From Gammaproteobacteria bacterium (lineage in GTDB: Bacteria > Pseudomonadota > Gammaproteobacteria > Arenicellales > CAJQKF01): a stretch of DNA of 64,000 nt. The notes beneath the pieces are model-generated. The model was not told where the DNA came from. It did no database searches and saw nothing but the letters and a program-made list of their open reading frames with translations. Made by a program: the position numbers and the translations under genes. Positions 13,922 through 44,580 of the stretch are shown piece after piece; position 1 is the stretch's first letter, and the number at the start of each line of letters is the position of its first letter. Where the stretch lies: the NCBI GenBank assembly GCA_030429665.1, contig JAUIEZ010000001.1, positions 1 through 64,000 on the forward strand, read 5' to 3'.

Positions 13922-15382
13922 CTACAACTTGATGCAAACGTTCTTCAGCTCGGTGTAGAACTCGAACGAATGCACCCCGCCTTCACGGCCGATGCCGGAG
14001 TGTTTCATGCCGCCGAAGGGCGTTCGCAGATCGCGCAGGAACCAGGAATTGACCCAGACGATACCGGCCTCGAGCCGGGCCGCCACGCGGTGGGCGCGGG
14101 CGAGGTTCTCCGTCCACACCGCCCCGGCAAGGCCGTAGCGCGTGTCGTTGGCCAGCGCCACCACCTCGTCCTCGTCGTCGAAGGGTCGAACATGGCAGCA
14201 GGGGCCGAATATCTCCTCGCGCACCGGCGCGGCGTCGTCGGCCAGGCCCGTCCAGATGGTCGGCTGCACCCAGTGACCGCCGGCAAGGTCGTCCGGAAGG
14301 TCCGGCACGCCTCCGCCGGTGACCACCGTGGCGCCGGCCTCGAGCGCCTGCTTGTAGTAGCCGAGCACCTTGGCGCGATGCGTCGCGCTGATCAGCGGAC
14401 CGATGGTGGTGGTCTCGTCGTTCCATGCACCGGGCCTGAGTTCTTCGGCCGTTTTCGCGAGACGTTCCACGAAGTCGTCGAACAGGGGCCGCTGCACGTA
14501 GACGCGCTCCGTGCCGAGGCAGACCTGGCCGCAATTGGCGAAGACCGAGCGCATGGTGCCCTCCAGCGCCTTGTCGAGGTCACAGTCGGCGAACACGATG
14601 CCCGGGTTCTTGCCGCCCAGTTCGAAAGACACCTGGGTGACGTGCGGCGCGCAGCCCGCCATGATGGCGGAACCGGTAATGCTCTCGCCGGTAAAGGTCA
14701 CGCCGTCGACCCCCGGATGGCCGGCGAGATACTCCCCGGCCGAGTCGGGCCCGAAACCGTGCACGACGTTGAACACGCCGCGCGGCACCCCGACCTCATT
14801 CATCACGCCGGCCAACAGTGCCGTGGTATGCGGCGTCTCCTCGGACGGCTTTACCACCACCGTGTTGCCGCAGGCCAGCGCCGGTCCGACTTTCCATGTC
14901 ATGAGCAGTAGCGGCAGGTTCCACGGGCACACCACTGCGATCACGCCCTTGGGGCGGCGCAGGGCATAGTTGAGAGCGCCCTCGCCGTCCGGCGTGTCGA
15001 GCATGAAACTTTCCGTGGGAACGTTCTTGACCAGGTCGGCGAATATCCTGAAATTCGCCGCGCCGCGCGGTATGTCGATTCGGGAAGCCAGCGAGGCGGG
15101 TTTGCCGGTATCGAGGCACTCGGCCGCCAGAAACTCGTCGAACCGTTGCTCGATGCGCGCGGCCACCTGGTGCAGCAACGCCATGCGTCGCTCGGTGGGC
15201 AAGCGGCCCCACGGGCCCGTCAGCGCCTCGCGCGCGGCGGCCACCGCCGCGTCGACCTCGGCGCGGCCCGCCTCGTGCACGATACCGATGACCTTCCCGG
15301 TCGCGGGATCGACATCCTCGAACGTCACCCCGGAGGCGGACGGCACGTCCTCGCCGTCGATGAACTGTCGGATCTCGAACAT
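13922..15382 (-). CDS. Aldehyde dehydrogenase, 2-hydroxymuconate/2-aminomuconate semialdehyde dehydrogenase type
   Basis: VTFTGESITGSAIM, FELGGKNPGIVFADCDLDKA and NCGQVCLGTERVYVQ; next to HAO, ACMSD and deaminase genes. Confidence 0.85.
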   Translation of the reverse strand: MFEIRQFIDGEDVPSASGVTFEDVDPATGKVIGIVHEAGRAEVDAAVAAAREALTGPWGRLPTERRMALLHQVAARIEQRFDEFLAAECLDTGKPASLASRIDIPRGAANFRIFADLVKNVPTESFMLDTPDGEGALNYALRRPKGVIAVVCPWNLPLLLMTWKVGPALACGNTVVVKPSEETPHTTALLAGVMNEVGVPRGVFNVVHGFGPDSAGEYLAGHPGVDGVTFTGESITGSAIMAGCAPHVTQVSFELGGKNPGIVFADCDLDKALEGTMRSVFANCGQVCLGTERVYVQRPLFDDFVERLAKTAEELRPGAWNDETTTIGPLISATHRAKVLGYYKQALEAGATVVTGGGVPDLPDDLAGGHWVQPTIWTGLADDAAPVREEIFGPCCHVRPFDDEDEVVALANDTRYGLAGAVWTENLARAHRVAARLEAGIVWVNSWFLRDLRTPFGGMKHSGIGREGGVHSFEFYTELKNVCIKL

Positions 15383-15504: not shown

Positions 15505-16443
15505 ATGCATCGCATCGACGTCAATCTCCTCAATACACGCCTGAAACTGCGCCAGCTGGTCGCGTTTCACACGGTCCACGAACTCGGCTCACTGGTAAAG
15601 GCGGCGAGGAGGCTCAATGTTACCCAACCCGCCCTGACTCGCACCATTCGAGAACTCGAAGCCCTGTTCGGCAATCCCTTGTTCGTTCGCGGCAATCGCG
15701 GCCTCGCGCCGACCCTGTTCGGCGAGGCGCTGGCGAAGCGCGTCGCGTCCATTCTCGCCGAGATACGATACACGGCCGACGAGTTGAACGCCTTGAGCCA
15801 TGCCGACGCGGGCCACGTGGTGGTAGGCACGGTCGTATCCGCGTCCGCGTACCTCCTGCCGGCGGCTATCGCAGCCATCAAGCAGCAATCTCCCGCCAAC
15901 GTGGTGAGCGTGCGGGAAGCAACCAACGACGTCCTCGTTCCGGCGCTCGCCGGCGGGGAAATCGACATGATCGTCTGGCGCATCCCGGAGGAACCGCAGG
16001 AAGGCGTTCACCACCGGATCCTGTACACGGACGACCTCGCGGTGGTCGTACGTCCCGACCACCCCCTGGCACGGCGCCGCACGCTGCGGCTCGCCCAGAC
16101 GGTCGATTTTCCCTGGATCGTGCCGGTCGCCGAGTCGCCGGTCAGGCGCATCGTCGACGAATCCTTTTACGCCGCGAAGCTCGAACCGCCGTCGAACATC
16201 GTCGAGTCGCTGTCCATACTGACCAATATCGGCCTCATGGCCCGCACCGACTCGGTCGCCATGCTGCCCCGAACCGCCGCCGAGCGATTCGTGCGCGAGG
16301 GCGTGGCGGTCGAGCTGCCGGTCAATGGGCTGGCACCTTTCGGCGACGTCGGTATATCCACCTGGAAGGACCGGGAGTTGCCGCCGGCCGCGCGGCGCTT
16401 GCTTCAGTGCCTGGTGGACGTGACACCGGATCGGCCGGCGTAA
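15505..16443 (+). CDS. LysR-family transcriptional regulator
   Basis: N-terminal LysR HTH LRQLVAFHTVHELGSLVKAARRLNVTQPALTRTIRELEALFGNPLFVR. Confidence 0.92.
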   Translation: MHRIDVNLLNTRLKLRQLVAFHTVHELGSLVKAARRLNVTQPALTRTIRELEALFGNPLFVRGNRGLAPTLFGEALAKRVASILAEIRYTADELNALSHADAGHVVVGTVVSASAYLLPAAIAAIKQQSPANVVSVREATNDVLVPALAGGEIDMIVWRIPEEPQEGVHHRILYTDDLAVVVRPDHPLARRRTLRLAQTVDFPWIVPVAESPVRRIVDESFYAAKLEPPSNIVESLSILTNIGLMARTDSVAMLPRTAAERFVREGVAVELPVNGLAPFGDVGISTWKDRELPPAARRLLQCLVDVTPDRPA

Positions 16444-16559: not shown

Positions 16560-17018
16560 GTGGTAAACGACGACCACTCGGTAACGGTGAACAAAGACAG
16601 CGCAGTCATTCCAGGCAAGGCGGTCCCCCGGGGCAGCTTCCCGCACTATCGGCGCGCGGGCGATTTCATCTACGTGTCCGGCACCAGCGCGCGGCGCGCC
16701 GACAACAGCATCGCCGGGGCGTCGGCGGACGAGCTCGGCACCACGGTACTCGACATTCGCGAGCAAACCCGGGCCGTGATCGAGAACGTGCGCGATATTC
16801 TCGCCGAGGCCGGGGCGCGGCTCGCCGACGTGGTGGAAATCTCCACTTTCCTGGTCAACATGAACGACTTTGCCGGATACAACGAGGTGTATGCGGAATT
16901 TTTCGACGCCGGCGGGCCGGCGCGCACCACCGTGGCCGTGCACCAGCTTCCCCACCCGCACCTGCTGATCGAGATCAAGGCGGTGGCGTACGCGCCGCGC
17001 CAGGAGGACATACCGTGA
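16560..17018 (+). CDS. RidA/YjgF-family protein, probable 2-aminomuconate deaminase
   Basis: [11 protein letters not shown]...[29 protein letters not shown]...[24 protein letters not shown]; context with HAO and ACMSD. Confidence 0.8.
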
Positions 17019-17569
17019 AGATTCACGAGCGATTCAGGGCGTTCAATTTCCAGTGTTGGATCGACGAGCACCTGGAAGAACTCAAGCCGCCGGTCGCCAA
17101 CCGGCACCTGTTCGACGAGAAGACGAACATGGTGGTCATGGTGATCGGCGGACCCAACCAGCGCGTCGACTTTCACGACGATCCGTCCGAGGAGTTCTTC
17201 TACCAGTTGCGCGGCGACATGGTGCTGAAGATCTGCGAGGACGGGAAAATCTCCGACGTACCCATCCGCGAGGGCGAGGTGTTCTTCCTGCCGCCGCACG
17301 TGCGCCATTCGCCCCAACGGCCCGTGCCCGGCTCGGTGGGACTGGTCGTCGAGGGACAGCGCGCCCCCGGCGCGAAGGACGGCTTCGAGTGGTACTGCTT
17401 CGAGTGCGGCGCGCGGGTTCACCGCGTCGAGATCACCCTCGCGGATATCGTGAAGGATCTGCCGCCGCTGTTCGACACCTTCTACGAAAGCCTCGAACAT
17501 CGCACCTGCGGCGAATGCGGCACCGTGCATCCCGGCAAGGAGCCGCCGGCAAACTGGGTGACGCTTTGA
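17015..17569 (+). CDS. nbaC: 3-hydroxyanthranilate 3,4-dioxygenase
   Basis: [34 protein letters not shown], and C-terminal CFECG/CGECG rubredoxin-like Cys pairs. Confidence 0.93.
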
Positions 17570-17594: not shown

Positions 17595-18590
17595 ATGAGC
17601 CCGGTCATCGACATGCACACCCACTTCTACCCCGTCGTCGGTCGCGACGAGGCGTGTCGATACGACCCGCACCACGGACCGTGGCTGAGAATCGACGGCG
17701 GCGACCGCGGCATGCTGATGCGCGGCGAGGAGGCCTTCCGACCCGTGTACAGCGCCTGCTGGGACGGCGGGCGGCGCATCGAGGAGATGGACCGGGACGG
17801 CGTCGACGTGCAGGTCCTGAGCGCGACGCCGCTCCTGTTCGGCTACCTTCACGACGCCCGCAAGACGCACGATTGGGCGAAAAGGATCAACGACATGGCG
17901 CTCGAAATCTGCGCCTGCAAGCCGGATCGGCTGAAGGCGCTGGCGCAGGTGCCGTTGCAGGACGTCGAGCTCGCCTGCGGCGAGGCCAGCCGGGCGCGCG
18001 AGGCGGGTCACATCGGCGTGCAGATCGGCAATCACGTCGGCGAGCGCAACCTGGATGACGCGACCATCGTCGAGTTTCTCACCCACTGCGCGAACGAGGA
18101 CATTCCGGTCCTGGTACATCCGTGGGACATGATGGCCCGCGAGCGCATGCCGAAATACATGCTGCAATGGCTGGTGGGCATGCCCGCCGAAACCCAGCTC
18201 GGCATCCTGTCACTGATTCTCTCCGGCGCTTTCGAGCGCATCCCCGACAGCCTGCGCATCTGCTTCGCCCACGGGGGCGGCAACTTCGCCTTCCAGCTGG
18301 GACGCGTGGACAATGCCTGGCACTGCCGCGACATCGTCCGCGAGCACTGCCCGAAGGCGCCGTCCAGCTATGTCGACCGCTTTCACGTCGACTCGGCGGT
18401 CTTCAGCGACGCATCACTGTCACTCCTGGCCGAGATCATGGGCACCGACAGGATCATGCTCGGTTCGGACTACCCTTTCCCGCTGGGCGAACAACGGGTC
18501 GGCGGGCTGGTACGTACCAGCGAGAGGCTGGACGACGAAGCCAAGTGGCGGATTCTCGGCGGCAACGCAAACGCATTCTTCGGACTTTGA
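17595..18590 (+). CDS. nbaD: 2-amino-3-carboxymuconate-6-semialdehyde decarboxylase (ACMSD)
   Basis: Amidohydrolase-2 fold: [75 protein letters not shown]. Confidence 0.92.
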
Positions 18591-18733: not shown

Positions 18734-19522
18734 ATGGACCTGGACCTGAAAGGTCGGCGTGCGCTGGTATGCGGCAGCAGCCAGGGCATCGGCCGCGCAT
18801 GCGCCCTGGAACTGTCGGCGCTCGGTTGCGGCGTGACGTTGCTGGCGCGCAATCGCGAACGTCTCGAGAGCGTGCTGAAGCAGCTCGACACCGCTCGCGG
18901 CCAGCTTCATCACGTACTGGTCGCCGACTTCGGCGACCCTGCCGCGGTGCGCGACGTGGTCAAAGGGCATGTTACCGACACCGGCCCCATCGAGATCCTC
19001 GTCAACAACAGCGGCGGTCCGCCGCCGGGGCCGGCCCTCGAAGCCGAACCGTCCGAGTACCTGGACGCGCTGAATCGCCACCTCCTGACGTTTCACAACC
19101 TGGCACAGGTTCTCGCGCCCGGCATGAAGGCGCAGGGTTACGGCCGCATACTCAACGTCATTTCCACTTCGGTGAAGCAACCGATACCCAACCTGGGCGT
19201 ATCGAACACCGTGCGTGGCGCGGTGGCGAACTGGGCCAAGACCCTGGCAGGCGAGCTCGGCCCGTTCGGCATCACGGTCAATAACGTGTTGCCGGGCGCC
19301 ACCGAGACGGATCGTCTGAAGACGGTCATGACGGCACGGGCCCGGAAGCAGGGCCTGACATTGGAGCAGGTGTCGGAGAACGACAAGCAAGGCATTGCCC
19401 TGCGGCGCTTCGCCGAGCCGTCCGAATTCGCCGCGGTACTCGCCTTCCTCGCCTCGCCGGCAGCCGGCTACGTGACCGGCATCAACCTGCCGGTGGACGG
19501 CGGACGCACGTTGTCGTTGTAG
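18734..19522 (+). CDS. SDR-family oxidoreductase
   Basis: RRALVCGSSQGIGRA and LVNNSGG motifs, C-terminal GINLPVDGGRTLSL; the usual YxxxK region is atypical (LGVSNTVRGA). Confidence 0.85.
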   Translation: MDLDLKGRRALVCGSSQGIGRACALELSALGCGVTLLARNRERLESVLKQLDTARGQLHHVLVADFGDPAAVRDVVKGHVTDTGPIEILVNNSGGPPPGPALEAEPSEYLDALNRHLLTFHNLAQVLAPGMKAQGYGRILNVISTSVKQPIPNLGVSNTVRGAVANWAKTLAGELGPFGITVNNVLPGATETDRLKTVMTARARKQGLTLEQVSENDKQGIALRRFAEPSEFAAVLAFLASPAAGYVTGINLPVDGGRTLSL

Positions 19523-19571: not shown

Positions 19572-20267
19572 ATGGAGAGTCATTCCTTGCAAGTTTCCGG
19601 CAGACTCGCGGATCGGCGTGCGGTGGTCACGTCGTCCACGAAATTCATGGGGCCGGCGATTTCCGCCTTGTTCACCGAGGCGGGCGCCGACGTATTGGCC
19701 GACGACCGTGACCTCGCGGCGCCGGGCGCCGTCGACGAACTGGCCGCCGAGGCAGGTGCCGTCGACATCCTGGTGGCCAACCTGGCGGGCAAGAACCCGA
19801 AATCTTCCGTTGCCGACACCACGGACAGCGCGTTCAAGGAAATGTTCGATGTCATGGTGTACCCGCTGCATCGATTGGTGCGCGTCTTCTCGAGCGCGAT
19901 GATCGCGCGCGGCGGCGGCAAGATCGTGGTCATCGGCAGCGCCTCGGCGCTTCGCGGCATGCCGAACTGGTGCGCCTACAGCGCCGCGCGCGGCGCGCAA
20001 GTCGCCTACGTGCGGGCGGTCGGCACGGAACTGGCCCCGCGAAACGTGCAGGTCAACGCCATCGCCCAGTCATTCGTCGAGAACCCGGACTACTTCCCGC
20101 CGGCATACCAGGCCACCGAGGAATTCCGCGCCCGTATCGCTTCGGTACCCGCGGGCCGCCTGGCGAGTGGCCGGGAGGCCGCGGCGGCCGCGCTGTACCT
20201 GGCATCGGACGAGAGCGACTTCCTGGTCGGCCAGGTGCTGCCCTTTGCCGGAGGATGGATTACATGA
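19572..20267 (+). CDS. SDR-fold protein, candidate halohydrin dehalogenase
   Basis: TSSTKFMG fits T-X4-(F/Y)-X-G in place of the cofactor Gly motif; S-X12-Y-X3-R in GSASALRGMPNWCAYSAAR; NPDYFPPAY loop. Confidence 0.7.
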   Translation: MESHSLQVSGRLADRRAVVTSSTKFMGPAISALFTEAGADVLADDRDLAAPGAVDELAAEAGAVDILVANLAGKNPKSSVADTTDSAFKEMFDVMVYPLHRLVRVFSSAMIARGGGKIVVIGSASALRGMPNWCAYSAARGAQVAYVRAVGTELAPRNVQVNAIAQSFVENPDYFPPAYQATEEFRARIASVPAGRLASGREAAAAALYLASDESDFLVGQVLPFAGGWIT

Positions 20268-21160
20268 GCGACCGACAGCGCCTCGATGCGCCGCTGACGC
20301 GGGTGAACGCCGGCGGCGTCGATCTCGCCTGCCTCGACGCCGGAGAAGGCCTGCCGGTAGTCTGCATTCACGGCTGGCCGGAACACAGCTGGTGCTGGCG
20401 CCGGCTCGCCGCACGGCTGGTGGACGATTACCGTGTCGTTGCCCCGGACCTGCGCGGATTCGGCGATTCGCCGGTGACCGCCTCGGGTTTCGACAAGAAG
20501 ACCTTGGCCGCCGACGTCGCGTCGCTGATCGAAACGCTCGACGCCTCGCCCTGCGTACTCGTCGGTCACGACTGGGGGGCGCCGGTCGCTTACCGGCTGG
20601 CGCTGGACTATCCGCAGCACGTCCGGGCGCTGGTGATCATGAACGGGCGCATGCCGCTGATCGCCAGCCATACGTCGCTGATCTACGAGCCGCGACTGTC
20701 CGCCGAACGTTGGTACTTTCACTTCAACCGGTTGCCCGACCTTCCCGAACTCATGATCAGTGGGGCCATGCGATCATTCTTTGACTACATGCTATTGCAT
20801 TGGTCGGCGGGCGAGCGGGTCTTCGATGACGAGGATCTCGACGAGATCGTGCGTGTCAACGCGCGGCCCGACGGCTTGAAGGCGGGACTCGGGCTGTATC
20901 GTACCGCCACGGAGCCGGACGCCGAGGATTGGCGCGAACACGAAGGCGCGCGTATCGAGGTACCCAACCTTGTGCTCTGGGGAACGCGCGACCCGGTGCT
21001 CACCGTCGATTACCTGGACGGTCTCGACACCGTCACCCCGGACCTCGAGGTCCACCGAAACGACCGCGCCGGGCATTTCATCCAGGAGCAGGCGCCGGCC
21101 TGGTGCGCCGAGCGCATGATCGACTTCATCGGGCGTCGGGTGTCGTCACGGCCGACGTGA
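20264..21160 (+). CDS. Alpha/beta-hydrolase, epoxide hydrolase/haloalkane dehalogenase-like
   Basis: IHGWPEHSWCWRRL oxyanion motif, VGHDWGAPVAYRLAL Asp nucleophile, GHFIQEQAP catalytic His; ATGA overlap with the upstream gene. Confidence 0.85.
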   Translation: MSDRQRLDAPLTRVNAGGVDLACLDAGEGLPVVCIHGWPEHSWCWRRLAARLVDDYRVVAPDLRGFGDSPVTASGFDKKTLAADVASLIETLDASPCVLVGHDWGAPVAYRLALDYPQHVRALVIMNGRMPLIASHTSLIYEPRLSAERWYFHFNRLPDLPELMISGAMRSFFDYMLLHWSAGERVFDDEDLDEIVRVNARPDGLKAGLGLYRTATEPDAEDWREHEGARIEVPNLVLWGTRDPVLTVDYLDGLDTVTPDLEVHRNDRAGHFIQEQAPAWCAERMIDFIGRRVSSRPT

Positions 21161-43927: not shown

Positions 43928-44580
43928 ACTAACGAATCCCCCGGCAAAGCCGGGGGGGTTCAAATGTGAGCCGCTCAAAGCGGACTGACGGGGTCGCTTC
44001 GCGGCCCCTTCGAATGTGACCGCCTGAAGGCGGACGACTACCGTAGCAGTTCCATCTGTTCGAGTCGGCGGTCTTCCTTCTCCTGGTCCCGAATATATTG
44101 GCGTATGACTGCTTCATCTCTTCCTACCGTCGAGACAAAATACCCCCTCGCCCAGAAATGCTGGCCTACGAAGTTCCGACGCCTCTCGCCGAATTCCCTC
44201 GCAATATGGATCGCACTCTTCCCTTTCAGGAATCCGATCACCTGAGAGACAGCATACTTCGGCGGGATCGAAAGCATCATGTGCACGTGATCCGGCATCA
44301 GATGACCTTCTTCGATTCGGCTCTCCTTCTGCACGCTGAGGCGATGAAATACCTCCCCAAGTTCCTTGCGGATCCGTCCGTACAGCAACTTGCGCCGGTA
44401 CTTCGGAATGAAAACGACGTGATATTTGCACTCCCATTTCGAGTGACTTAGGCTTCGATACTGGTCCATCGAGATTCTCCTCGTTGTGTGCTTGGCGGCT
44501 CACAACCCGGAGTTTCTTCGATGGACTGCTGTATATGTCAAACATTGTCTGCCTCCCCGGCAGAGCCGGGGGGTCTCCCG
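43928..44580 (-). mobile_element. IS200-type insertion sequence with hairpin ends (boundaries approximate)
   Basis: Y1 transposase ORF flanked by CCCCCGGC-AAA-GCCGGGGG (43938-43956) and CCCCGGC-AGA-GCCGGGG (44555-44571). Confidence 0.75.
44038..44469 (-). CDS. tnpA: IS200/IS605-family Y1 transposase (TnpA)
   Basis: CKYHVVFIPKYRRKLLYG, HLMPDHVHMMLSIPPKYAVSQVIGFLKGKSA (HUH), VIRQYIRDQE (Tyr). Confidence 0.93.
   Translation of the reverse strand: MDQYRSLSHSKWECKYHVVFIPKYRRKLLYGRIRKELGEVFHRLSVQKESRIEEGHLMPDHVHMMLSIPPKYAVSQVIGFLKGKSAIHIAREFGERRRNFVGQHFWARGYFVSTVGRDEAVIRQYIRDQEKEDRRLEQMELLR

Follow-up and report, generated by a model that had tools for sequence, protein, structure and literature searches.

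Halohydrin dehalogenases (HHDHs) and epoxide hydrolases are both already known enzyme families; operons that combine the two are rare and offer a clue to the natural role of HHDHs. In Agrobacterium AD1, HheC works with the epoxide hydrolase EchA as its partner. HheC has been discussed together with its epoxide hydrolase (PMC11976700), and by 2016 just two HHDH genes were known to share an operon with an epoxide hydrolase gene (PMC4989007). HHDHs are recognized by two fingerprints, T-X4-F/Y-X-G, referred to below as motif 1, and S-X12-Y-X3-R, motif 2 (PMC4989007, PMC11976700). For most HHDHs, the natural role is mysterious, and the rare paired arrangement makes HHDH physiology testable.

Here, a stretch of 64,000 nucleotides, called the window below, was analyzed, which constitutes the first part of contig JAUIEZ010000001.1 of a gammaproteobacterium of the order Arenicellales. 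To judge from their sequences, two of its genes very probably encode a cofactor-free HHDH and an alpha/beta epoxide hydrolase, which would be translationally coupled by an ATGA overlap and would convert a haloalcohol via an epoxide into a diol. The pair forms the end of an operon of the 3-hydroxyanthranilate/aminomuconate type (Table 1).

Table 1. Coordinates in the window of the HHDH-hydrolase pair and of the genes preceding it.
Feature	Position	Strand	Basis or remark
2-Hydroxymuconic/2-aminomuconic semialdehyde dehydrogenase, divergent	13922..15382	-	TIGR03216 equivalog, 847.7 bits vs. cut-off 693
LysR-type regulator	15505..16443	+	PF00126, PF03466
RidA-family protein, candidate 2-aminomuconate deaminase	16560..17018	+	PF01042; role inferred from position
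3-Hydroxyanthranilate 3,4-dioxygenase (3-HAO)	17015..17569	+	NCBIfam equivalogs PRK13264, TIGR03037 above cut-off
ACMSD-like amidohydrolase (Amidohydro_2)	17595..18590	+	Pfam PF04909
SDR upstream, same operon	18734..19522	+	Pfam adh_short_C2
HHDH reading frame, open from ATG 19572	19572..20267	+	231 aa
Putative ribosome-binding site GGAGAG, start TTG 19587	19574..19579	+	Sequence
HHDH, B/D-like lineage	19587..20267	+	226 aa from likely TTG start
Alpha/beta-hydrolase, complete epoxide hydrolase active site	20264..21160	+	298 aa; alignment with EchA (1ehy), PDB matches

The predicted halohydrin dehalogenase gene

An earlier note on this DNA had taken the first gene to start at ATG 19572. Its reading frame stands, but TTG 19587 is the likelier start, since the GGAGAG sequence is located 7 nt upstream of this codon and since the codon aligns with the ATG of the homologous HHDH gene in a congener (locus L009). 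The sequence features by which that note had named a candidate HHDH were all recovered. Motif 1 is present as T20-SSTK-F25-M-G27, in the place of the glycine motif TGxxxGxG of short-chain dehydrogenases/reductases (SDRs), which is missing; motif 2 is formed by S123, Y136, and R140, and the NPDYFPPAY loop is present as well. Both motifs are found in every HHDH homologue, in one case with Ser for Thr. In contrast, Escherichia coli FabG and the ordinary SDRs used as controls carry the SDR motifs without the HHDH motif pair; neither HHDH motif was detected in FabG or in the neighboring SDRs checked from this genome and its relatives, except that one SDR matches motif 2 by chance, away from its active site.

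The first gene belongs to the HHDH family. The best sequence matches of its product in the PDB are HheD2 (7b73; E = 1.8e-58), a variant of HheD8 (8xxb), and HheB (4zd6), and the first ordinary SDR follows more than 90 bits below the B- and D-type HHDHs. The alignments with HheD2 and HheB cover the full length with gaps of at most a single residue, whereas most ordinary SDRs among the matches listed align only from approximately residue 45 onward. When an AlphaFold2 model of the monomer (pLDDT 89.7) was used in a Foldseek search, the nine best matches were all HHDHs, i.e., HheD2, HheB, and HheD8, with TM scores of 0.89-0.91.

Phylogenetic trees were built with HheA2 and HheC (the sequences of which were verified to be identical to 1zmo and 1pwx, respectively), HheB, HheD2, HheD8, and homologues from the genomes; the E and F types and HheG were left out. 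The earlier note had named a placement among cofactor-binding SDRs as an outcome that would speak against an HHDH; instead, the protein groups with the HHDHs, in a clade with the HheB and HheD types and apart from the NAD(P)-dependent SDRs (support 100/99). Together with its homologue in L009, it forms a small branch of its own beside the B and D types, with 47% identity to HheD2, 46% to HheB, and 44-52% to other B/D-like homologues. In the tree, it is located outside the D clade, although joining it with this clade is not rejected (AU test, p = 0.095), and outside the B types, with which joining is weakly rejected (p = 0.038). Because the E and F types are absent from the tree, we do not claim a new subtype.

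The predicted epoxide hydrolase gene and the operon

Alpha/beta epoxide hydrolases are defined by an Asp-His-Asp/Glu triad, a Tyr-Tyr pair, and an HGXP motif, and Cif-like enzymes are marked by a His replacing one Tyr (PMC8244358). The product of the second gene contains the GHDWGAP sequence reported earlier, with the Asp nucleophile at residue 103. Alignment with EchA, for which a sequence verified to be identical to 1ehy was used, revealed a triad of D103, H271, and D243, the cap tyrosines Y151 and Y212, and an HGXP motif, HGWP, at residues 36-39; a Tyr is found where Cif-like enzymes carry the His. Thus, the presence of every defining active-site feature supports the prediction that the second gene encodes an alpha/beta epoxide hydrolase. 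The AlphaFold model is poor (pLDDT 42.5), and the identification rests on sequence. Among the PDB sequence matches are epoxide hydrolases and Cif-like enzymes, and a plasmid search with the protein listed general hydrolases alone, with 32-35% identity.

As the earlier note had described, the stop codon of the HHDH gene (TGA, 20265-20267) overlaps the start codon of the hydrolase gene (ATG, 20264) as ATGA. The same overlap is present in L009, where the homologues are 75% (HHDH) and 80% (hydrolase) identical, and the translation of both genes may well be coupled through it. The dN/dS ratios between the window and L009 are 0.17 for the HHDH gene and 0.14 for the hydrolase gene, as compared with 0.19-0.20 for three neighbors in the operon. 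Both genes are under purifying selection.

The pair is probably co-transcribed with the upstream ring-cleavage genes; a scan for promoters and terminators yielded nothing above chance, and none on the plus strand. In these upstream genes, the name ACMSD was given to the amidohydrolase because its gene adjoins that of the 3-HAO, and is thus inferred from position; the protein is conserved in three congeners. The SDR of the operon is conserved as well, with 82% identity in L009 and 68% in G022, a second congener. It retains the cofactor motif as GSSQGIG, but reads S-X12-S-X3-R instead of S-X12-Y-X3-K (ISTSVKQPIPNLGVSNTVRGAV) and, therefore, is an enzyme without the usual catalytic Tyr and Lys. 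The same substitutions of Ser for Tyr and of Arg for Lys are found in L009 and in G022 (L062:7332-8120).

No genes dedicated to halogenated compounds were recognized around the pair. Type II haloacid dehalogenases, four copies of which are present in the genome, were considered as a sign of organohalide metabolism, but they are ordinary for the order and hence uninformative, since 85 of its 109 genomes have a member over the cut-off. A short protein resembling, by eye, an IS200/IS605-type transposase is encoded at 44038-44469 on the minus strand, ~23 kb from the pair.

Distribution of the pair and possible functions

In one congener (G023; L009 and L047), the genes for LysR, RidA, dioxygenase, amidohydrolase, SDR, HHDH, and hydrolase are arranged as in the window and are likewise followed by the convergent TRAP transporter. 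In G022, with an estimated completeness of 100%, the genes for RidA, dioxygenase, amidohydrolase, and SDR are kept, but no HHDH was detected at E <= 1e-20 and no close homologue of the hydrolase, the best match being 33% identical. Thus, in these three genomes, the end of this operon has either both genes or neither of them. The ring-cleavage cluster of G022 (L062; C43:8000-27000) includes, by eye, a look-alike of VOC-family (extradiol dioxygenase-like) proteins, and a TRAP solute-binding protein is also located between the ring-cleavage genes. In a genome from another family of the order (L063:8058-15539; G108, contig C33), a dioxygenase/ACMSD-like pair adjoins genes whose products resemble, in sequence, a UbiD/UbiX-type decarboxylase pair, a nitroreductase, and an FAH-family hydrolase; the dioxygenase gene appears to be split by a frameshift or an assembly error. 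These surroundings suggest that dioxygenase/ACMSD-like pairs serve varied aromatic pathways.

Altogether, 21 distinct HHDH loci were read; they come from Gammaproteobacteria, a second class of this phylum, and a plasmid, and three of them are on short contigs. An epoxide hydrolase gene adjoins the HHDH gene at three of them, i.e., the window, L009, and the Novosphingobium plasmid pSA2, which represent two lineages, and at none of the other 18 loci examined. This count agrees with the two operons known in 2016 (PMC4989007). The hydrolases of the window and L009 are unrelated to that of pSA2, which is of the EHN type (PF06441). On pSA2 of Novosphingobium resinovorum (L048:8796-10669), motif 1 of the HHDH has Ser for the first Thr (SMAELYMG), and the protein is annotated as an SDR family oxidoreductase, nothing more; the cluster also encodes a PQQ alcohol dehydrogenase, an aldehyde dehydrogenase, and enolase-superfamily enzymes. 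At another locus, in a genome of the other class (L106:8848-9987, minus strand), a hydrolase resembling haloalkane dehalogenases, with an HGEP sequence and a score below the curated cut-off, is encoded two genes from an HHDH gene.

The two-step route from haloalcohol via epoxide to diol is drawn from the chemistry of the two enzyme families. In the HHDH, Tyr136, with its pKa lowered by Arg140, would deprotonate a vicinal haloalcohol held by Ser123. The alkoxide would then displace the halide, presumably the natural leaving group, yielding the epoxide, and the halide would enter a pocket that takes the place of the nicotinamide site and is formed by motif 1 and the FVENPDYFPP loop. In the hydrolase, Asp103 would attack the epoxide, whose oxygen would be held by Tyr151 and Tyr212, after which water activated by His271 and Asp243 would free the diol.

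That the first gene encodes an NAD(P)-dependent SDR, whether ordinary or degenerate, is highly improbable. Generic SDR models do match residues 52-230 of its product, which also contains ANLAG as a partial NNAG-like sequence, but the nucleotide-binding motif is replaced by motif 1, an Arg takes the place of the Lys, and this reading was rejected as motifs, tree, and fold all place the protein with the HHDHs. For the second gene, it seems quite unlikely that it encodes either another hydrolase with an Asp nucleophile, such as a fluoroacetate or haloalkane dehalogenase or a Cif-like enzyme, or a meta-cleavage-product hydrolase for the upstream pathway. Meta-cleavage hydrolases use a Ser nucleophile, in contrast to Asp103 here. 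The identity of 27% to EchA as compared with 35% to a Cif-like enzyme, and the presence of fluoroacetate dehalogenases among the PDB matches, are in line with another Asp-dependent enzyme, but the HGWP motif and the Tyr-Tyr pair are canonical for epoxide hydrolases, and Cif-like enzymes have His for one of these Tyr residues (PMC8244358).

It is also unlikely that the HHDH-fold enzyme, with unchanged chemistry, has a natural partner other than a halide and forms or opens epoxides with a small anion such as cyanide, nitrite, or thiocyanate, while the hydrolase removes epoxides formed by oxygenases, so that the pair would serve detoxification instead of organohalide use. HHDHs do accept azide, nitrite, cyanide, cyanate, and thiocyanate (PMC4989007, PMC11976700), room has been left for other physiological roles (PMC4989007), and the pair is located in an aromatic-degradation operon without a recognized halogen context. 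However, the strains that yielded the first HHDHs had been enriched on haloalcohols and epihalohydrins (PMC4989007), and the pairing with an epoxide hydrolase best fits the halohydrin route.

Within the preferred reading of an HHDH with its epoxide hydrolase, the gene order in two genomes makes a functional link to the upstream ring-cleavage pathway possible. It is doubtful, though, that the pair would extend the 3-hydroxyanthranilate/aminomuconate operon in such a way that a haloalcohol, or a compound with another leaving group, derived from a side chain or the ring, is converted via an epoxide into a diol beside ring cleavage; if true, this would give the new HHDH lineage a defined native role. 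For some HHDHs, a real route from halohydrin via epoxide to diol is supported by this pair, which is kept under selection, and by the second pairing, in Novosphingobium, with an unrelated hydrolase. The conserved operon context offers concrete inducers and substrates to try, and a new HHDH lineage with its own epoxide hydrolase becomes available to biocatalysis.

Comparison with known systems

The HHDH of the window shares with HheD2 and HheD8 both motifs, the IAQ loop, the short form of ~226 residues, and the fold (TM about 0.9), and with HheD2 also the SASALRGM active-site strand. It differs from them in sequence, with identities of 47% and 46%, respectively, which is below the 57-95% reported between HheD19-HheD38 and verified HheDs (PMC4989007). 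With HheB of Corynebacterium sp. N-1074, it shares the motifs, the DESDF-VG segment at the C terminus, and the fold, but the identity is 46% and motif 1 contains Phe instead of Tyr.

As a pair, the genes resemble those for HheC and EchA of Agrobacterium radiobacter AD1 in combining an HHDH with an alpha/beta epoxide hydrolase, and all active-site residues of EchA are conserved. However, the HHDH is only 25% identical to HheC, which is of another subtype, the hydrolase is 27% identical to EchA, and, unlike in AD1, the genes overlap and are the last ones of a ring-cleavage operon. On pSA2 of N. resinovorum SA1, a B-like HHDH with 51% identity to that of the window also has an adjoining epoxide hydrolase, but there the hydrolase belongs to PF06441, the gene order is opposite, motif 1 starts with Ser, and the pair is surrounded by other genes.
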